DNA of 64,000 nt from Xenococcaceae cyanobacterium MO_167.B27 (lineage in GTDB: Bacteria > Cyanobacteriota > Cyanobacteriia > Cyanobacteriales > Xenococcaceae): the NCBI GenBank assembly GCA_030065935.1, contig JASJCP010000028.1, positions 1-64,000 on the forward strand, in the 5' to 3' direction. The notes beneath the pieces are model-generated. The model had not been told where the DNA came from. It did no database searches and was given only the letters and a program-made list of their open reading frames with translations. This document shows positions 5,767-60,692 of this stretch, in pieces (the stretch's first letter is position 1; every line of letters starts with the position of its first letter). Both the position numbers and the translations under genes were made by a program.

Positions 5767-8259
5767 GTGATTGCTGATGAAGTGGCAAGAATATTTCCTC
5801 AAATCAATCCTCAAAATACTGGTAGTAATCAAGCTGAACCAGATATTTATTGGAGACTTAAAAAACAATTACCAGATGATTTTGTTGTAATTCATAGTTT
5901 GCCCTGGTTAGCTTCAGTTGCCAAAGAAATTGATGGTCGTTCCGTCCCAACAGGCGAAATAGATTTTATTGTTTTACATCAAAAGCTAGGCATTCTTGCA
6001 GTTGAAGTTAAGGGTGGTATTTTTAGTTATGAGAAAACTGATTTTGTATATAAACGTACAGGTCAAAAAATCGATCCTATTCGTCAAGTAAGACGTGGAA
6101 CTCATGCCCTAGCGAAATTATTACATAAAGTTGGAGCAGGTAGTTGGCGCATTGGTTATTGCATTATTTTTCCACATTCTGAGATGCGAGAAAGTATTCC
6201 TATCTCATTAATAGATTTTACGGTTCAGACTCCACAACCTATTATTCTTGATATACGTCATCTCAGTAATCTTGGACAAGAGATTCAAGCAATAATGAGT
6301 TATTGGCAAAAAGCACTTAGTACATGGTGCATAAAAGAACAGGAGTTTGAAAAATTAATTGACGTATTGCTGCCTTCGAGTGATTATACTCCATGCTGGC
6401 AAACCAGAATTAATCATGATACTGTTACTTGGCTGAAATTAACATCAGAACAATCAAGATGCTTGGATAGAATTAGTCAAGAAAATCGTTTGGTAGTTAC
6501 AGGATTTCCAGGTACTGGAAAAACGCTTTTGTTAATAGAACAAGCTCGTAGATTATCAAAGTTAGGAAAAAAAGTACTGGTTATAACCTATAATTACTTG
6601 CTATCAAAACGTTTACAAGATGAACTATCTAATGTTGATGTTGAAGTTTCTACTTTCCATGAACAATGTCGTCGGGCTGTACAAATTATGGGGGAACAAA
6701 GCCCCGATTTTAGTATATCTCATGGTATAGAAGAGCGAAAAAAAGAGTGGTATTATTTTACTGCACCAAATATACTTGAACAAGCTTTAGAATCCAAAAA
6801 ATTACCGAACTATGATGCTTTATTAGTTGATGAAGGTCAGGTTCTATATACTGATTGGTTAGAAATACTTAGCCAGTGGTTTGATACAAAAAAAATAATA
6901 GTATTTTGTGACTCAACACAAGTATTTAATTTTGAAAAATCAACATCTCTTGAAGATATAGTAAAAATTATTAATGCTAAATTACCTTATATACTTACTT
7001 TAAATTTGCGATCTCCGCGTAAGATATTTGAAAGAATTTCACAAGTAAAACAATCAGAGTATCAACAGTTTTGTCCACGCTCTTATGAAGAAGATACCCT
7101 TGAAGAAATAGTTGTTGATGATACACGTTCTGCTTTTATTAAAATTGTTGATCGGTTATTTAAAGAAGGAATATCTAAAGAATCTATAATTATAATAGAT
7201 ACTGTTTCTAGATATCAAAAACAATTGAGTTATAAAGGAATTGAAGTTGTTCGCTCATCAAGATTTCGTGGGCTAGAATCTCCTGTTGTTATTATTTTAG
7301 CTGATAAAAAAACTGATGAAAACTCTTTATTTTGTGCATATACAAGAGCAACAAGTCGCTGTATTGTTATTTATTGTGCTATAAAAATGACCACAGGAAG
7401 TTATGGTGATTTTGGGAATTTAATTTTAGATGATGATGATGGTCGCATTCAAGAAGAGGCAAATTTAGGATTAACATCCAGTATTTTTGATAATGCAAAT
7501 TTTGAGATAATTACTGTAGCAGATAAATCAATTAATCTATTGTGGTGTTTTGATTGGGGTGGTTGGGTGATTGATCCCACAAAAAACGATCAAGTTGCAC
7601 AATTAATGTGGACTCATCATCTCATTGTTACTACCAATTATCCTGTATATACTTGGAATGCTTCTGACAGAGGACAACTTATACATTTTAAGCCTGTTAA
7701 ACAAATAAATTCTGAATTAGATAAAAGTTGGTATGATCTTTATTATTGCGAAAATTGTAGAACAGTAACTCTTTTTAGATTAAATTTTATAAAGGAAATT
7801 CATGAATGTACAATATGTTTTCCATTAAAACAAAAAGTTTTATTTAAAGAAATTGAAGAAGAACTAAAAAAACAAGCAAAATTAGATAATATTTTGTCAT
7901 TGGGAACATTGGCTGAAATAAAAGACAAGAAAAAATTAACTATTTTTTTAATGGCATTAGGTAGATGGAATACAATTACTGAAGAAGACAAACAAGATTT
8001 TAATAATTATCCAATAAGAATTGACGGAAAAAGCGCGTATATAGCTGCAAAACTACTAGTTTTAACCGATATTATCAAGCTCAACAAAAATATTATACTT
8101 GATGAAATAGCAACAAAATATCGTGCTAAATGGTGTCCCGATCTTGTAAATAGAATAGCTGAAAAATCTTGGCGAAATATTGTAGCTCAGGCTCTTAATA
8201 CTTGGTTTGGGAAAGGAATTATTGAAAAAGTAGATAAAGGAGTTTATAAAAGAAGATAA
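5767..8259 (+). CDS. NERD-domain nuclease fused to UvrD-like superfamily I helicase, with C-terminal Zn-ribbon-like CxxC pairs
   Basis: GTG start. N-term 'GEIDFIVLHQKLGILAVEVKGGIF' (NERD-like); Walker A 'GFPGTGKTLL'; DExQ-type 'LLVDEGQ'; 'LNLRSPRKIF'; 'RFRGLESPVVIIL'; 'YTRATSRCIV'; 'YYCENC...CTIC' Zn-binding pairs. Confidence 0.88.
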   Translation: MIADEVARIFPQINPQNTGSNQAEPDIYWRLKKQLPDDFVVIHSLPWLASVAKEIDGRSVPTGEIDFIVLHQKLGILAVEVKGGIFSYEKTDFVYKRTGQKIDPIRQVRRGTHALAKLLHKVGAGSWRIGYCIIFPHSEMRESIPISLIDFTVQTPQPIILDIRHLSNLGQEIQAIMSYWQKALSTWCIKEQEFEKLIDVLLPSSDYTPCWQTRINHDTVTWLKLTSEQSRCLDRISQENRLVVTGFPGTGKTLLLIEQARRLSKLGKKVLVITYNYLLSKRLQDELSNVDVEVSTFHEQCRRAVQIMGEQSPDFSISHGIEERKKEWYYFTAPNILEQALESKKLPNYDALLVDEGQVLYTDWLEILSQWFDTKKIIVFCDSTQVFNFEKSTSLEDIVKIINAKLPYILTLNLRSPRKIFERISQVKQSEYQQFCPRSYEEDTLEEIVVDDTRSAFIKIVDRLFKEGISKESIIIIDTVSRYQKQLSYKGIEVVRSSRFRGLESPVVIILADKKTDENSLFCAYTRATSRCIVIYCAIKMTTGSYGDFGNLILDDDDGRIQEEANLGLTSSIFDNANFEIITVADKSINLLWCFDWGGWVIDPTKNDQVAQLMWTHHLIVTTNYPVYTWNASDRGQLIHFKPVKQINSELDKSWYDLYYCENCRTVTLFRLNFIKEIHECTICFPLKQKVLFKEIEEELKKQAKLDNILSLGTLAEIKDKKKLTIFLMALGRWNTITEEDKQDFNNYPIRIDGKSAYIAAKLLVLTDIIKLNKNIILDEIATKYRAKWCPDLVNRIAEKSWRNIVAQALNTWFGKGIIEKVDKGVYKRR

Positions 8260-37442: not shown

Positions 37443-39488
37443 CTAACTTTCTAAAGCTGATTTTTTTATACTATCAAGCAATTCAGAAAACTTGTTAAGA
37501 TCTTGTTCTAGTTGAATAGGAGCTTTTATATAGTTAGGAGAGCGTAGTTTTGTACCATCTGGTAATTCTTGACTTAAATAACCTTTTTGAAACTCATCTT
37601 TACGAATAAAACCTCTTAATTCTAACCATCCTAAATTATCTTGTAGATTTAGATTAGATAATTGTAATCCTGCTTTAATAGCTTTGTATAAAAATGTTTT
37701 CTTGATATGAAGTTTCACTAACATGAAAATCTCTCCTTCCCAATCAAGTTCGTTTTGCGGAATTGCTAAATAGTTTCCATTAGTTGATTTTAATGATATT
37801 GTGTATTCAGGTTTAATGTCGTACATTTGTTGATCTACAACTATTGTAGTAAAATCCCCATTATCTCTTTTTTTCTCAGTATCTTCTATTGTTGAATAAT
37901 CTACTGGGAATTCTATATTACTAATATTAATTGCATATTTATGAAATCCATGTTCTGCTAATTTTCCTCTTACTTCATCTTCAATCTTACCCGTAAAATT
38001 TCTTTGACCTCTCATGCCATATTTTTTAGGCTGTCGGAGTACATCATCATAGCTTTCTACTACTGCCTTAGCATCGTTATAGTCTAAATCTATTGAACGA
38101 TTATATAGTTTTAGAGTATAGTTTTCCAATTCTCTAATATTGCAACATAGCCTATTACCAGAACCTTTAATTTTTTTAAAATGAATTTCTGGTTCAATTG
38201 TTAATTCTCCCAACTTAAGATTATTTTTTCTTCTAAAATCTAAATCTTTTAACTTTATACTCCTTTTGCATAATGTCAAGAATTTTAGAGTTTGATTGAG
38301 AGTTAAATATATATCTTCATTTTGATTAATTAATAAATCTGTATCTTCATTTTTGATTTTTTGAACAAGATTATATTTTTTTTTGAAGCTACTAGAAACT
38401 GTGTAAATACGACTACTATATTGCATTAATTCTTTTTGAGAAATATTTTTGGATAAATTATCTTCAAATACTAAAGGTAATTTAAGCTGGTGATAATCTA
38501 ATATAATCTTTGCTTGATTATGAAATTGACTTTGAAAGACTTTTTTTAATTCTTCTGCAATTACTTTAATTGCAATAGGAGGTACTGAATTACCTATTTG
38601 TTTTCGCACACTAGCTATTTTGCCAACAAACTGAAAATCATCAGGATACCCAAATAAACGCGCTCTTTCTCTATTTGTTAACGGTCTGGGTTCTTCATAA
38701 TGATAACCCCAAGTACCACCACCACCTGCTGCAATAATAGTAGTAGATGGTTTACTTCTATCTAGTCTTCTATAGACATGAGATATCATTCCTTTAACGT
38801 AGTAAGGAGAATCTCTAGGAATAGATTGAAAATTACCGCCTTCTGGAATAAGCTCTAAAATTTTTTTAGTCTTGGGTTTGATGTTAATATATTCGTTATT
38901 ATAAATTGCTTTCTCTACTCCTTTTAAAGCTTCTCCACAGGTAATATAATTATCTGGAGAGTGACTTGGTTGAGGCTTTTGATAATAAAAAGGAATATCT
39001 TGTCTAATACCAATAATTAAAACTCTTTCTCTGATTTGTGGTGTACCATAGTCGGCAAAATTGTAAACATCTGCATAAATTTTGTAACCACAGTTTTTGA
39101 AATCTTCTATTATTGTTTTAATAGCCTTGCCTTTATTAGCCGTTACTAATCCTTTAACATTTTCTGCTACAAACAATCGAGGCTTTTTATACTGTACGGC
39201 TCTAACAAAATATTGATAGAGATTACCTCTATCTGTTTTAATACCACCTCTTTTCCAAATCATTGAAAAATCCTGACAAGGAAAACCTCCTAATATTACA
39301 TCACAATCAGGAATACAATTAAAATCAATATTAGAAATATTTTCTTCTATAATGTGATCGCCAATATTTAAACGATAAGTTTCACAAGCATCATGTTCAA
39401 TATCATTGGCCCAAACTATATTATATCCCGACCAAATAAAGCCGAGATCCATTCCACCACAACCACTAAATAGCGAAACTGTTTTCAT
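37443..39488 (-). CDS. C5-cytosine DNA methyltransferase with ~350-aa C-terminal extension (putative fused restriction endonuclease)
   Basis: MTase motifs 'FSGCGGMDLGF', 'GGFPCQDFS', 'ENVKGL', 'QIRERVLIIGI', 'IGNSVPPIAIKV' within ~320 aa; extension with 'TIVVDQQMYDIKPEYTISLKSTNGNYLAI'. Confidence 0.88.
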   Translation of the reverse strand: MKTVSLFSGCGGMDLGFIWSGYNIVWANDIEHDACETYRLNIGDHIIEENISNIDFNCIPDCDVILGGFPCQDFSMIWKRGGIKTDRGNLYQYFVRAVQYKKPRLFVAENVKGLVTANKGKAIKTIIEDFKNCGYKIYADVYNFADYGTPQIRERVLIIGIRQDIPFYYQKPQPSHSPDNYITCGEALKGVEKAIYNNEYINIKPKTKKILELIPEGGNFQSIPRDSPYYVKGMISHVYRRLDRSKPSTTIIAAGGGGTWGYHYEEPRPLTNRERARLFGYPDDFQFVGKIASVRKQIGNSVPPIAIKVIAEELKKVFQSQFHNQAKIILDYHQLKLPLVFEDNLSKNISQKELMQYSSRIYTVSSSFKKKYNLVQKIKNEDTDLLINQNEDIYLTLNQTLKFLTLCKRSIKLKDLDFRRKNNLKLGELTIEPEIHFKKIKGSGNRLCCNIRELENYTLKLYNRSIDLDYNDAKAVVESYDDVLRQPKKYGMRGQRNFTGKIEDEVRGKLAEHGFHKYAINISNIEFPVDYSTIEDTEKKRDNGDFTTIVVDQQMYDIKPEYTISLKSTNGNYLAIPQNELDWEGEIFMLVKLHIKKTFLYKAIKAGLQLSNLNLQDNLGWLELRGFIRKDEFQKGYLSQELPDGTKLRSPNYIKAPIQLEQDLNKFSELLDSIKKSALES

Positions 39489-53193: not shown

Positions 53194-54234
53194 TTAAAGA
53201 CTATAGTGGCGAAAAATAATCCATTCTCCTGAAACTTCCGCGATCACACCACCAGGCATGGTGGAAGTGCGACTTTTATTAGGAGCATCAATTAAATTAC
53301 AAACTGCTTCTATTTCTGCAAAAGTAGGATATTGCTGGATAATTTGAGGTAAAAATTGTCGGATAATTCTTCTTTGTAATGCTAAAGGAACATCTCTAAG
53401 GATATAGCGATTTAGTTTGTCATCTCTTCCTGTTTTTACTTTTATTAATAACTCTTGTGCCTGTGCTTCTAAATATTCTACGTCAGCTTTTAATAATTCT
53501 GCGGTTTGGGCGAGAGAGTTTTCCACTTGAGGATTAAAATTATCTTGCAAATAAGGAATTAAATCCCCTCTAATCCTATTCCGAGCATATTTTTTATTCT
53601 CATTAGCAGCATCTAACCAAATAGGTAATTGAAATTGCTGACAAAATTCTAAAGTTTCTCGACGGGTAAAGTCTAAAATCGGGCGAATTAATTGGATGTC
53701 TGGAGTCAGAAACCTTTGCCAACTCAGAGAGGTTAAGCCATCAAGTCCAGCACCACGAATTAAATTGTATAAAAAAGTTTCAGCGCGATCGCTTTTTGTG
53801 TGGGCAGTAACAATATATTTAAAGTTATATTCTTCTGCAATTTCTACTAAGGCTTGATATCGCCATTTTCTGGCTGCTGCTTCTGTTTCTTTTAAATTTT
53901 GAGCTACTTTAAGATAAAAAGGTAAATTATGATTTTGGGCTAATTCTCTCACATGATCTGATATTCCAGCATCTGTTGACCAACCATGATCGCAATGAGC
54001 TATAGCTAAATTCCATTGCCATTTAGGTTGTAAATCTAATAGTAATTTTGTTAAACATAAAGAGTCTTGTCCTCCAGATAGAGCAATTAAAATTTTAGTT
54101 TTTTTAGGTAATAAACTTGTTTTTTTCAGAGTTTGATGTAATCTAGCGTGGAATATTGTCCAACAATCTCGGCGTTGCTGTGGTGTGTGGAGATTCCGCC
54201 CAAGACCAGGCACTTTGCGATCGCTATTTTTCAT
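53194..54234 (-). CDS. tilS: tRNA(Ile)-lysidine synthetase
   Basis: PP-loop '[17 protein letters not shown]', 'AHCDHGW', '[25 protein letters not shown]'. Confidence 0.93.
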
Positions 54235-54353: not shown

Positions 54354-55370
54354 ATGAAAGGTGAGCTTCTAAAAAGATTGTTTAGAGCGATCGCATCTAA
54401 TGACCAAGAAGCGATTGACAAGCTCACGTACCTAGTTATTGAAGACGAACGCAAAAAAGGACACACAGTTCTAGCCAATCAACTGGAAAATATAACTAGA
54501 ACTACTCAATCTAATGATTCGATAGATAGCAGTGGTGATAAATCTCGTAAAAATGGATTATCTCCTAGTTCAAATGTAGAGACTTTAAGTGTATTACCAA
54601 CCAGCAAAAAGCTCAATACACCTTTAGTTACTTTTATTCCTAGAGAAAAACTAAGACATCAGATGATTTTGCCATTATCGGTGGAAAAGCGTTTTCAAAG
54701 GATTGAAAAAGAATATGCTGCAAGAGATAGATTAGCTCATCATGGACTGCGTTACAGGCAAAAAATTCTTTTGTTTGGTGTTCCTGGTTGTGGAAAAACT
54801 ATGGGAGCAGAGCGTTTAGCTTGGAATACAGGATTGTCTTTTCTCAAAGTTCGTTTTGATGCAATGGTTTCTTCTTATTTAGGAGAAACAGCAAGCAACT
54901 TAAGATCGGTATTCGATCTGGCTGCTCAAAATTCTTATTTGTTATTCTTTGACGAATGTGATTCTATTGCCAAATCTAGAGAAGATATGCAAGAAGTTGG
55001 TGAAATAAAACGAGTAGTTAATACTTTTCTACAAATGTTAGATGAATATGAATCTTACTCTGGACTTCTAGTAGCAGCAACAAACTTGAATAAATCTCTT
55101 GATACTGCTCTTTGGAGACGTTTCGATGATGTGATTGAAGTACCAATTCCTGGCAAAAAAGAGCTAGAATCGATAGTCAGACAAACTCTATCAGCGATTG
55201 AGGTAGGTTCGATTAACTGGCAGTTGATTATTCAACAAATGGAAGGATTTTCGGCTGCACAAGCTGTCAGAGTCGCACAAGATGCAGCCAAAAGAGCCAT
55301 CTTAGATCGTGAAGAGTTAGTTATTCAGGAACACTTAGAAGAAGCGATTAAAGAAATCAAAGTTTCCTGA
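54354..55370 (+). CDS. AAA+ ATPase (IetA-like) partnered with a subtilisin-like protease
   Basis: Walker A 'LLFGVPGCGKTMGAERLAW', Walker B 'YLLFFDECDSIAKSRED', 'ATNLNKSLDTALWRRFDDVIEVPIPGKKE'; gene pair with 30-bp gap. Confidence 0.85.
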   Translation: MKGELLKRLFRAIASNDQEAIDKLTYLVIEDERKKGHTVLANQLENITRTTQSNDSIDSSGDKSRKNGLSPSSNVETLSVLPTSKKLNTPLVTFIPREKLRHQMILPLSVEKRFQRIEKEYAARDRLAHHGLRYRQKILLFGVPGCGKTMGAERLAWNTGLSFLKVRFDAMVSSYLGETASNLRSVFDLAAQNSYLLFFDECDSIAKSREDMQEVGEIKRVVNTFLQMLDEYESYSGLLVAATNLNKSLDTALWRRFDDVIEVPIPGKKELESIVRQTLSAIEVGSINWQLIIQQMEGFSAAQAVRVAQDAAKRAILDREELVIQEHLEEAIKEIKVS

Positions 55371-55400
55371 AGTTAATTATCTCTAATTACAGGAAGTTTA

Positions 55401-58004
55401 ATGGTTGATAACTCTAAGCAATTCCCTCATATTCAGCTTAAACTCGCCAGAGAAGGAACTGCAAAACCAGCTACGGGAGGAGGAAGTAACAAAACCAACC
55501 CCATAACAGCAAAAAATAGAAGTGATCGCTGGGGACATGGAAATAAATTAAAGAGTTCTGCCAATTCAATCGTTGCAGACTGGAAATCTTCGACCGAAAA
55601 AAGAGAAGAAGAGGAAAAACCAGAACTTCCTGACGCAAGACGTATTATCTTACAAGTCGATCCTAAAGCTTTCGATCCAGACAAACTTAAGGGTTATGGA
55701 ATAGAGGTTATTGGCGATCTTGAAGATGGTTATATTATTGGCGCATCAGCAGATTTAGAATTAACAAAGTTAGAGCAAAAAATTGAAAAATTTATCAAAG
55801 AACAAAGAGGAGGTGGTTCAGTACCAGAAATATGGGAAATATTTGAAGGCTCTCAGAAAATAGAATCAATCCTGTCTCCTGAATTGTTAGCACATTGGGA
55901 TGAAGTTCAAGATGAGCAAATATACATTGTTGATATTGGAATAGCTTGTATAGGGAATAAAATTAAATTATCTGATTATCCAAGGAAAAAAGATGATGAA
56001 ACTGTTGATAGTTACAGTGAAAAATTAAATAATTGGAGAAATAAAAGAGATACTACTTATGAAGAATGGGATAATTTAAAATCTCAACGAGAAGATGAGT
56101 TAACACAATTTGTTGAAAATTATCAAGGTAAAATTTTATCTATTGTTGATGGAGATACTCCAAAATTTATTGAACTTCCTGATAGTTTTTCTTGTCGCAT
56201 TCAGATTTCAGGAAAAGGATTAAAAGATTTAGTTTTTACCTTTCCTTATATTTTTGAAGTTAGCGAACCAGATGAATTTAAAGTAGCAATTCGCAACCCA
56301 AGTACATCAAGATATACTCAGCATATTTCAGAATTGCAGCCTCCTAAAAAAGATGCGCCTAAAGTCTGTGTTATTGATAGTGGAATTCAAGAAAGACATC
56401 CGTTATTAAGAGCAGCGATAGATTCTCAAAGTTCAACCTGTTGGATTCCTGGAGAAAGTAATAAAACTGCCGATTATGTCAGTAATGGGGGACATGGTAC
56501 TAGAGTAGCTGGAGCAATACTCTATCCGAGAAATATTCCTCGTACTGGTCAACAACAAGCAATTTGTTGGCTACAAAATGCCAGAGTTTTAGATGCTAAA
56601 TGTAAACTTATAAAACAATTATTTCCTCCAGATTTAATCAAAGAAATAGTTGACTTTTATCATACAAAATCTAATACTAGAATCTTTAATCATTCAATTA
56701 CTGGTGCTGTTCCTTGTAGAACTCGTTATATGAGTGCCTGGTCAGCTACGATTGATGAATTGACTTATCAAAATGACATTCTTTTTGTTGTAGCTGCTGG
56801 TAATTTACTTTTAGAGCCTGATCCTGAATATAATCCTGTTACAAGACTAACTATTAAAGAACATCTACAAAATCAAAAATTATATCCCGAATATTTATTA
56901 GAAGATTCTTGTCGAATTGCCAATCCCGCACAGAGTTTTCAAGCTTTAACTGTTGGTTCTGTTGCATCTGATTACTACAATAATCCGCCTCTTAATTCTC
57001 TGGCGGAAAAAGATCAACCATCAGCCTTTTCTTGTTCTGGGTTGGGTATTTGGGAAACAATTAAACCCGAAGTTGTTGAATATGGCGGTGATGTAGTTAC
57101 TGATAATAACAATATTCCTAGTTTAACCTACCCAAATGCAGTATGTCCTGAATTAGTGCGCTCGACTTTAAATGGTGGTGATGCTGTAGCTGCTGATAAG
57201 ATTGGTACATCTTTTGCTACACCAAAAGTTACTCATATTCTTGCTCGTTTAGCTACTGAATTTCCACAAGAAAGCTGTTTGTTATATCGTGCTTTAGTTG
57301 TACAATCGGCTCGATTACCAGAGTGGACAAAACAAAGTGATGTTAATCTATTTCATGCTATTCGTACAATTGGTTATGGTATTCCCAATCTTGATCGTGC
57401 TTTAGGAAATACTGAAAATAGAATTACTTTAATTACTCAAGGTGATAGAAAAATTAAAGCCAGACAAGCTCATGTTTATCAAGTTCAATTACCCAAAGAA
57501 CTGAGATCGCAAGGAGATGAATTAGAAATTTTATTAGAGATAACTTTATCTTACAAGGCACAACCTCGTAGAACGAGACGTAACAGAAGAAGATATCTTT
57601 CTACCTGGCTTGATTGGGATTGTAGCAAAAGAGGAGAAGACCCAGATTATTTTCTTAATAGAATACTTAAAGAATATGATGCACCTGAAGATGCAGATAA
57701 AGGAGAAAGTATTTTTACTTGGACTCTTGGTAAACAAAAAAATCATAAAACAATTAAGGAAATTTCTAGGAGTGCAGGAACTCTTCAGAAAGATTGGACA
57801 ATTGTAAAATCTTATGAGCTAAGAGAAGCTTTTTGTATTGCTGTAGTGGGACATGAAGGTTGGAATAACGATCCAGATGCTTCTGTCCCCTATTCTTTAG
57901 TTGTCAGTTTTGAGGCAATAAATCCTAATATTCCTATTTATTCAGCAATTGTACAAGCTGAAACTAAAGTTGAACTTGAAGTTAAAAAACAAGTAACTGT
58001 TTGA
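55401..58004 (+). CDS. S8 (subtilisin-like) serine protease (IetS-like)
   Basis: Catalytic Asp 'VCVIDSGIQERHPLL', His 'GGHGTRVAGAI', Ser 'GTSFATPKVTHILARLA'. Confidence 0.88.
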   Translation: MVDNSKQFPHIQLKLAREGTAKPATGGGSNKTNPITAKNRSDRWGHGNKLKSSANSIVADWKSSTEKREEEEKPELPDARRIILQVDPKAFDPDKLKGYGIEVIGDLEDGYIIGASADLELTKLEQKIEKFIKEQRGGGSVPEIWEIFEGSQKIESILSPELLAHWDEVQDEQIYIVDIGIACIGNKIKLSDYPRKKDDETVDSYSEKLNNWRNKRDTTYEEWDNLKSQREDELTQFVENYQGKILSIVDGDTPKFIELPDSFSCRIQISGKGLKDLVFTFPYIFEVSEPDEFKVAIRNPSTSRYTQHISELQPPKKDAPKVCVIDSGIQERHPLLRAAIDSQSSTCWIPGESNKTADYVSNGGHGTRVAGAILYPRNIPRTGQQQAICWLQNARVLDAKCKLIKQLFPPDLIKEIVDFYHTKSNTRIFNHSITGAVPCRTRYMSAWSATIDELTYQNDILFVVAAGNLLLEPDPEYNPVTRLTIKEHLQNQKLYPEYLLEDSCRIANPAQSFQALTVGSVASDYYNNPPLNSLAEKDQPSAFSCSGLGIWETIKPEVVEYGGDVVTDNNNIPSLTYPNAVCPELVRSTLNGGDAVAADKIGTSFATPKVTHILARLATEFPQESCLLYRALVVQSARLPEWTKQSDVNLFHAIRTIGYGIPNLDRALGNTENRITLITQGDRKIKARQAHVYQVQLPKELRSQGDELEILLEITLSYKAQPRRTRRNRRRYLSTWLDWDCSKRGEDPDYFLNRILKEYDAPEDADKGESIFTWTLGKQKNHKTIKEISRSAGTLQKDWTIVKSYELREAFCIAVVGHEGWNNDPDASVPYSLVVSFEAINPNIPIYSAIVQAETKVELEVKKQVTV

Positions 58005-58132
58005 CATAATGTTTGTTAAATTACTTAATTTTTATTTAAAATATTTAAAATATATTCATTGTTGTCAATAATTCTAAAACTTTGTACTTATTACACGAGA
58101 TCGATATAGTTTTTTCCCAAATAGTTTCCGCA

Positions 58133-59494
58133 ATGGAAATAGTACTATTTTTTTCTATTGCAGGGATACCTTTAATTATTCTGTGGCTGATTGGAGGAGG
58201 AATATTTTTTACTCTTAGATATGGTTTTATTAGTCTGCGAGGATTTAAAGAAGCAGTCGCCATTGCGACAGGAAAATATGAAACAGATGGGGAGGGAGAA
58301 GTATCCTCTTTTCAAGCTTTAGCTACCGCTTTGTCGGGGACAGTAGGATTAGGAAATATTGCAGGAGTTGCGATCGCTATTCAAGTAGGAGGCGCAGGGG
58401 CGGTTTTTTGGATGAGTATCGCTGCTTTCTTGGGGATGTCTAGTAAGTTTGTTGAATGCACTCTAGGACAGCAATACCGCCAGGTTAACCCTGATGGGAC
58501 AGTAGCAGGAGGACCCATGTATTATTTAGAAAAAGGTCTAGGTGATTTGGGTTTTGCCAAGTTAGGGAAGTTACTAGGAATAATTTTTGCTCTGTTTTGT
58601 ATCGGTGCTTCTTTTGGTGGCGGAAATATGTTTCAAGTCAATCAGTCTTTTTCCGCTTTGACTGCTTTGTTTCCTGGTGTGGAAAGTTATAACTGGGTAT
58701 TTGGTTTAACTGTTGTAGTGTTAGTGGGGTTGGTAATTGTTGGAGGAATTAACCGCATTGGGGTGGTTACAAGTAAGTTAGTCCCCTTGATGATTGGGAT
58801 ATATTTAGTAGGTTGTTTGTGGGTCATTGGTAGCAAAATTACAGAAATACCAGATGCGATTATAACTATCTGTCAGTCAGCTTTTTCCGCTAATGCTGTA
58901 GAAGGGGGTTTAGTAGGGTTGTTAGTCTTAGCAATTCGTCGTAGTGCTTTCTCTAATGGTGCTGGTTTGGGGGCTGCTGCGATCGCTCATTCGGCTGCAA
59001 AAACTCAAGAGCCGATACAAGAAGGATTAGTATCGATGTTAGAGCCATTTATTGACACTGTTGTAATCTGTAACTTAACCGCTTTAGTAATAGTTTTAAC
59101 TGGAACTTATGGGGTAAATATTCCCTCAGATATTAATGGCTCAGAGTTAACCGCTTTGGCTTTTTCCCAGGTAGTTAGTTGGTTTCCCTATCTTTTAGCA
59201 GTGGTAATTTTCTTGTTTGGTTTTTCTACTACTTTGGCATGGAGTTATTACGGCGAAAAATCTTGGATCTATCTATTCGGCGATCGCAATACTTTGATTT
59301 ATAAGGGTGTCTTTCTAATTTGTATTTTTGTTGGGGCGGTGGTTAATCTGGGAGTCGTAGTAGAATTTAGCGACATGATGTTATTAGCAATGGCTCTACC
59401 CAATCTGATTGGATGTATTCTGTTATCCAACAAAGTTGCTAAAAGACTAAATAATTATCTGTTAAAACAAAACTTGGAATCTAAAATAAATTAG
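58133..59494 (+). CDS. Alanine/sodium:amino acid symporter (AGCS family)
   Basis: 'GEVSSFQALATALSGTVGLGNIAGVAIAIQVGGAGAVFWMSIAAFLGMSSKFVECTLGQQYR', 'GGPMYYLEKGL', 'FSNGAGLGAAAIAHSAAKT'. ORF also open from TTG at 58082. Confidence 0.92.
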   Translation: MEIVLFFSIAGIPLIILWLIGGGIFFTLRYGFISLRGFKEAVAIATGKYETDGEGEVSSFQALATALSGTVGLGNIAGVAIAIQVGGAGAVFWMSIAAFLGMSSKFVECTLGQQYRQVNPDGTVAGGPMYYLEKGLGDLGFAKLGKLLGIIFALFCIGASFGGGNMFQVNQSFSALTALFPGVESYNWVFGLTVVVLVGLVIVGGINRIGVVTSKLVPLMIGIYLVGCLWVIGSKITEIPDAIITICQSAFSANAVEGGLVGLLVLAIRRSAFSNGAGLGAAAIAHSAAKTQEPIQEGLVSMLEPFIDTVVICNLTALVIVLTGTYGVNIPSDINGSELTALAFSQVVSWFPYLLAVVIFLFGFSTTLAWSYYGEKSWIYLFGDRNTLIYKGVFLICIFVGAVVNLGVVVEFSDMMLLAMALPNLIGCILLSNKVAKRLNNYLLKQNLESKIN

Positions 59495-59762: not shown

Positions 59763-60692
59763 CTAATTACTATTAAAAAAATCTAGAATTTCCTGATAAA
59801 AAAAAGCTCCTTTATTTCGACTATCAGCAGCAGTAACAACAAGTCTTAAAGTTTCAATTAAAGAATTTTTAGTAGCATCTATAATTAGCTCTAGAAGTTG
59901 ACTAATATCATTTTGATTTTCTTGTCCATAGGCGATAACATTGATATAATCATTACGAATTGCATTAGAAATAATTACAATGGGATAGCCTGTCTTGAGT
60001 AAAATTAAATTCATCAATAGTCTTGCTGTTCTTCCGTTACCATCACGGAATGGATGTATAGAAACAAAACGAAAATGAGCAGTAGTTGCATATTCTATGG
60101 GATGTAATTCTTGAGCTTGTTCTGAATTAAGCCAATTAATAAATTCTGCCATTAATTGTGGCACTAAATAATGTGGTGGATCAAGATAATTTGTTCCTGC
60201 TGCTTTAACATCTAATCCCCGATATTTCCCCGCTTCATCTGGGGCGATTTTTCTTAAAATTAAATTATGAATTTGTTTGATTTGCCATTCTCCAATCGTA
60301 CTATCTTCTTTGGCTAATGTTTCTACGTAGTCAATAGCATCTTTATGTCCAATAATTTCTAAATGTTCTTGTAGTGTTTTCCCACCAATAGTAATTCCTT
60401 TCGATAAAACTAATTCTGTTTCACTTTGACTCAGGGTATTACCTTCAATTGCATTGGAATTATAGGTAAACTGAACATCATATATTTTTTTTAATTCCGC
60501 AACAATTATTGGAGAAAGGGGACGAAAGCTATCTAACCATCTTTTGAGTTTATTTATCTGTTGCAATTGAGACTGATTATTCATATTCAGATAGTGATTG
60601 ATTAGTTTCTCAATATCTGGAGTAGTATGTGTTTTATGTAATTGAATAAGTTTCGAGATGAATTCATCGTATAGTTGGTAACTGGAGGTCAT
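59763..60692 (-). CDS. Fic/DOC family protein (class II-like, N-terminal inhibitory motif)
   Basis: Active site 'HPFRDGNGRTARLLMN'; N-terminal 'YNSNAIEGNTLS' matches (S/T)xxxE(G/N); flap-like 'RGLDVKAAGTNYLDPPHYLVP'. Confidence 0.92.
   Translation of the reverse strand: MTSSYQLYDEFISKLIQLHKTHTTPDIEKLINHYLNMNNQSQLQQINKLKRWLDSFRPLSPIIVAELKKIYDVQFTYNSNAIEGNTLSQSETELVLSKGITIGGKTLQEHLEIIGHKDAIDYVETLAKEDSTIGEWQIKQIHNLILRKIAPDEAGKYRGLDVKAAGTNYLDPPHYLVPQLMAEFINWLNSEQAQELHPIEYATTAHFRFVSIHPFRDGNGRTARLLMNLILLKTGYPIVIISNAIRNDYINVIAYGQENQNDISQLLELIIDATKNSLIETLRLVVTAADSRNKGAFFYQEILDFFNSN

Follow-up and report, generated by a model that had tools for sequence, protein, structure and literature searches.

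The chromosome of Xenococcaceae cyanobacterium MO_167.B27 carries a horizontally moving IetAS gene pair that we read, with a probability of roughly 0.68, as a two-protein toxin-antitoxin defence in which the ATPase IetA restrains the protease IetS, and which phages counter with an ietA of their own. The sequence examined, referred to throughout as the window, is the whole stretch of 64,000 nucleotides that was analysed (positions 1-64,000, forward strand, of contig JASJCP010000028.1, assembly GCA_030065935.1). New here is the existence of cyanophage contigs with ietA and without ietS; a literature search, outside which most subscription papers lay, turned up no account of cyanobacterial IetAS or of an IetA carried by phages. 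The pair and its parts lie in the window as follows:

54354..55370, + strand: ietA, a classic-clade AAA ATPase of 338 aa, predicted antitoxin/unfoldase (open reading frame, Pfam, PADLOC profiles, structure model)
54360..54527, + strand: N-terminal three-helix bundle, IetA residues 3-58 (AlphaFold2 model)
54777..54800, + strand: Walker A motif GVPGCGKT, IetA residues 142-149, conserved in homologues
54876..54884, + strand: predicted pore-loop-1 motif YLG, IetA residues 175-177, with L176 and G177 conserved
54939..54956, + strand: Walker B motif LLFFDE, IetA residues 196-201, conserved in homologues
55116..55127, + strand: RRFD, predicted arginine finger region, IetA residues 255-258, with R255, R256, F257 and D258 invariant and the role putative
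55371..55400, + strand: ietA-ietS spacer of 30 bp, in which GGAAGT stands some 8 bp 5' of the ietS ATG
55401..58004, + strand: ietS, an S8 subtilisin-like protease of 867 aa, predicted toxin/effector (open reading frame, Pfam, PADLOC profiles, structure model)
55638..56264, + strand: two N-terminal modules of IetS (residues 80-148 and 174-288), each a beta-alpha-beta-beta-alpha-beta fold (AlphaFold2 model)
56376..56378, + strand: catalytic Asp326 of IetS, invariant in 42 sequences
56493..56495, + strand: catalytic His365 of IetS, invariant in 42 sequences
56802..56804, + strand: predicted oxyanion-hole Asn468 of IetS, invariant in 42 sequences
57210..57212, + strand: catalytic Ser604 of IetS, invariant in 42 sequences

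The sequence-only reading had described two co-directional genes 30 bp apart, the first an AAA+ ATPase with intact Walker A and B motifs and the second an 867-aa protein with an intact S8 triad, and each of these points is borne out: the intact open reading frames run from 54354 to 55370 and from 55401 to 58004, profile searches match IetA to Pfam AAA (1.8e-28) and IetS to Peptidase_S8 (7.5e-34), the ATPase motifs are conserved in homologues and the triad residues are invariant across 42 homologues of IetS. Many relatives have an ietA/ietS overlap of about 4 nt, as against the 30-bp spacer in the window. The pairing goes far beyond chance, because ietA and ietS stand intact and in identical order at 47 subfamily loci.

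The AlphaFold2 model of IetA (pLDDT 88.8) consists of the three-helix bundle, a disordered linker at residues 58-77 and then the AAA module, whose nearest solved folds are the 26S Rpt subunits, Cdc48 and FtsH. The model thus predicts a threading ATPase of the Rpt/Cdc48/FtsH type with a small N-terminal helical bundle, in which YLG would serve as pore-loop-1 by its likeness to Rpt and FtsH. In IetS (pLDDT 85.4, pTM 0.89) the two N-terminal modules, the second of which contains a long helix at 202-240, lead into a poorly predicted linker at about 289-311, beyond which lies the catalytic domain. Among PDB entries, the pro-form subtilase ProN-Tk-SP (3afg) matches best over the longest stretch. The N-terminal region is accordingly predicted to comprise two propeptide-like modules, a likeness to zymogens of the pro-subtilisin type that is one of secondary-structure modules by fold match rather than of residue-level superposition; a Pfam profile search gave no propeptide match in IetS. 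Both proteins are free of segments that resemble a signal peptide or would span a membrane (top 19-residue hydropathy 0.79 for IetA and 1.27 for IetS), and IetS should therefore work inside the cell. Searches of solved structures by IetA and IetS sequence found generic AAA proteins and generic subtilisins only. At two loci the IetS N-terminal region is doubled within one protein (L140:7952-11155 and L145:8078-11497; 1068 and 1140 aa).

The proposed IetA/IetS identity was upheld by the PADLOC profile search that had been put forward as its check, with matches of 2e-78 for IetA (models PDLC02196/02195/04232) and 2e-62 for IetS (PDLC02198 and others) over most of each protein's length, and with PADLOC IetS models matching 42/42 aligned IetS homologues. 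Gene order, AAA and S8 domains, intact active sites and sizes of about 340 and 870 aa are all shared with IetAS. The window pair differs in that its scores fall far under the NCBIfam equivalog cut-offs (IteA, NF042959, 216.1 vs 510 bits; IteS, NF042956, 122 vs 900 bits) and in that the best IetS model covers residues 310-852 only, with the N-terminal region outside the match. At about 40% identity or above, the group of the window IetS includes members from Bacteroidota, Nomurabacteria, Planctomyces and Burkholderia (plasmid), whilst identity to other IetS groups is about 22-32%. By sequence, then, the pair belongs to the known IetAS family when this is taken broadly, within a divergent subfamily and as another equivalog. 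Two AAA/S8 pairs of other hosts and elements, likened to the window pair by description rather than alignment, have shown antitoxin/toxin roles: sgiAT of Salmonella genomic island 1 (PMC5006074) and TA132/133 of Mycoplasma mycoides (PMC8562856).

A 2023 survey regarded the mechanism of IetAS as still undescribed (PMC9958689). In published genetics of homologues, losing the ATPase alone is lethal whilst losing the protease or both genes is tolerated (PMC8562856), and S025 and S026 of SGI1 act as toxin and antitoxin (PMC5006074). A review places ietAS among the systems that mutations in phage proteins evade (PMC10286901). We infer a cytosolic subtilase with a built-in propeptide-like N-terminal region, kept inactive in healthy cells by IetA acting as a hexameric threading ATPase. 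This restraint would be lifted when a phage infects the cell or the element is lost, and the freed IetS would cleave cell or phage proteins so that growth halts before phage release; alternatively, cells losing the element would die. Cyanophages would counter with ietA alone, the infecting phage supplying extra IetA so that IetS stays off.

The direction of control could also run the other way, with IetA unfolding chosen (phage) proteins and feeding them to IetS in a two-component ATP-dependent protease. The likeness of IetA to substrate-threading motors, the conservation of its YLG pore-loop-like motif and the adjacency of ietA to ietS in all intact loci would suit such an arrangement. Feeding does not readily explain why homologues that lose the ATPase alone die, why the protease alone is toxic (PMC8562856, PMC5006074), or why ietA occurs by itself in hosts (L127, L152, L154) and in phages, with no IetS to feed, and we think it unlikely. 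Homologue genetics and the phage cassettes together favour an IetA that restrains IetS.

Decay of the pair in hosts was counted over subfamily host loci, leaving out those interrupted by contig ends. Besides the 47 intact pairs there are 11 loci that keep an intact ietA but have a broken ietS or none, five with both damaged and a single one (L104) in which ietA is frameshifted and ietS intact. Decay polarity was rejected as proof of toxin and antitoxin roles: the skew of 11 vs 1 towards broken ietS runs in the fitting direction, but gene length alone yields p = 0.11. Two loci tell against IetA as antidote. Firstly, L104 (G168:C52) is an exception to the antitoxin model, in that its intact ietS is preceded by two ietA copies in tandem, each with a frameshift in the linker and an AAA core that stays open. 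Secondly, at L119 in G181 an N-truncated ietS with its triad intact persists without ietA.

A scan of IMG/VR recovered viral contigs encoding IetA 57-77% identical to that of the window. Seven IetA-bearing phage records, all incomplete metagenome contigs, contain no IetS beside ietA or elsewhere in the record, and the same profile brought up no viral contig with ietS alone. Of five records checked, four, spread across both phage groups, have strong hallmarks of phage structure or packaging: a terminase large subunit (2.4e-141), a tape measure protein, a major head/protease protein (1.5e-25) and a minor tail protein whose match (1.7e-57) comes with best relatives in Cylindrospermopsis phages. 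In the fifth (G553, 188 kb) the only matches, to head and adaptor proteins, are weaker. Terminase_3 (PF04466) was absent from six phage records, so that the phage call rests on the other hallmarks. The records of L165, L166 and L167 show strong enrichment of HIP1, the cyanobacterial octamer. Known isolated phages carry distant AAA genes only, some together with a distant S8 gene.

The boundaries of these cassettes are sharp. Over 1146 bp L166 and host G534 share 98.8% identity, from about 70 bp upstream through the whole of ietA and the spacer into the opening bases of ietS, where similarity ends; between L167 and host G180 similarity likewise ends at the ietS start codon. DNA identity to the host operon in the two captures is 99% and 85%. 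A maximum-likelihood tree pairs L167 with a host (99/92), places L165 and L166 within another host clade (100/99) and has the short-form group L169/L171/L173 branching deeply; two captures of ietA are secure and there is probably a third. Cassettes without ietS at L165:5974-7077, L166:5931-7076 and L304 (IMG/VR) have in common the sequence ATG-GTT-TAA, a scar seen in three viral contigs, each of a different metagenome sample, where L165 and L166 read TAA and hosts read CAA. Among 218 host-family genomes the TAA scar does not occur, and the junction is found twice, both times with CAA. Outside the cassette L165 and L166 differ in sequence, from which it follows that the cassette moved between phage backgrounds. 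Phage ietA is under strong purifying selection (dN/dS of about 0.06 between phages). The thyX of L166 is 80% identical to that of G534, which suggests the G534 group as host of this phage; a spacer or prophage link of L166 to hosts was rejected, a whole-locus DNA search having given, among the matches listed, only homologues of ietA, thyX and dnaN and no spacer evidence.

The cassettes suggest that IetA is the antidote and that phages use it in counter-defence, and we hold it a little better than an even bet that cyanophages have at least twice excised ietA where ietS begins and retain it by purifying selection for this purpose. An unrelated auxiliary gene or passenger, with no antidote function, is the other possible account of phage ietA. 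Its case is that thyX and dnaN, neighbours on the same phage, are host-like too, and that the IetA of one phage group has diverged and is without the helical bundle. A passenger should hardly be cut at the start of ietS in at least two separate captures, nor does it sit well with the purifying selection or with viral contigs on which ietS by itself was not seen, and we regard this account as doubtful. Phage antidotes to toxin-antitoxin defence are known in Gp145 (against DarTG), Dmd and pseudo-ToxI (PMC11481870); phage ietA, likened to these as a putative antidote, differs in being a near-identical copy of the host AAA antitoxin with a remnant of the toxin's start codon. Since the captures come from other cyanobacterial families, counter-defence fits the IetAS family and not specifically the window strain. 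If true, it would be evidence from nature that the antidote is IetA by itself and that cyanobacterial IetAS is directed against phage. A recent, trimmed phage copy of a host antitoxin offers a direct handle on which half of the pair is the antidote, bears on what IetS must be kept from doing, and speaks to how phages build counter-defences out of the defence operon itself.

Other phage stretches show features of their own. L169, L170, L171 and L173 encode a shorter IetA in which the N-terminal helical bundle is missing, next to a protein that has tail-fibre-like matches; this form may act differently, and may do so as a poison subunit. GATC is almost absent from the L169, L173, L177 and L178 stretches (0 vs 75 expected in L178), which suggests escape from GATC-directed restriction.

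Within hosts, IetS is patchily distributed, present in 6/27 genomes of the family, 41/196 of the order and 51/390 of the class, counts that take in relatives at about 30% identity. It was not found in three congeners examined, whose genomes are 76-81% complete. The insertion site and its flanks are as follows:

53194..54234, - strand: tilS, flank, with its first ~24 codons in the non-shared segment
54163..58030, no strand: segment that congener G196 lacks at its tilS/AGCS junction, with flanks 86.7% and 89.6% identical
58082..59494, + strand: sodium/amino-acid symporter (AGCS type) gene, flank

At this exact site in G196 tilS adjoins the symporter gene without an insert, and congener G198 has there a different gene of about 190 codons, Uma2-like by reading. 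The first ~24 codons of the window tilS appear unlike those of congeners because the boundary of the ietAS segment falls inside tilS. No boundary direct repeats of 8 nt or more flank the insert. Only 30/820 locus pairs, mostly of close relatives, have a flanking protein in common; a flank seemingly shared between L104 and the window was rejected as coincidence, being an iron-dehydrogenase-like gene several kb from ietAS. Across 26 genomes, IetA and IetS distances agree closely (Mantel r 0.74, or 0.71 with the host marker lgt removed), whereas agreement of each with lgt is weak (r 0.32 and 0.33). Judged by these distances, ietA and ietS have co-diverged and travel as one unit. Two findings had been named in advance as able to undo the sequence-only reading, a lack of co-occurrence elsewhere and conserved housekeeping contexts without patchiness; instead, the genes co-occur throughout, in a patchy set of genomes, at many unrelated loci and opposite an empty site.

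Another possible reading is an addiction module of plasmids or islands that plays no part against phage. IetS-like proteins occur in 468 plasmid records, 320 of them predicted conjugative, though only 11 have a match spanning at least 80% of the query, and relatives reside on Synechocystis and Leptolyngbya plasmids; the family was first described, in the account of Yamamoto 2009 given by PMC8562856, as a stability module of pTiC58, and sgiAT of SGI1 is a precedent (PMC5006074). The window pair, however, is chromosomal, amid housekeeping genes and with no adjoining mobile-element genes seen, curated defence libraries class the family as anti-phage, and phage capture of ietA alone is better explained if phages meet IetS. 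Addiction as the sole function is thus rather improbable. Housekeeping protein quality control, for which an AAA protein beside a protease recalls the logic of FtsH and Clp, is already contradicted by a patchy, movable and often decayed distribution and by the empty congener site, and is most improbable.

The Fic gene earlier noted downstream of the toxin-antitoxin candidate is present:

59763..60692, - strand: Fic gene (Pfam 8.9e-22)

It has the HPFRDGNGRTAR motif and a SNAIEGN inhibitory-like motif, with PADLOC matches to SoFic (1.1e-30) and PDC-S04 (1.2e-33). Its tie to the pair did not stand, since the symporter gene intervenes and Fic runs on the opposite strand, and Fic as a third component of IetAS was rejected as having no support. 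Elsewhere in the window are a C5 cytosine DNA methylase (37443-39488) that extends at its C-terminus for about 350 aa with no Pfam match, and a NERD nuclease-related domain fused to a helicase (5767-8259, 830 aa), which may serve in defence or repair.
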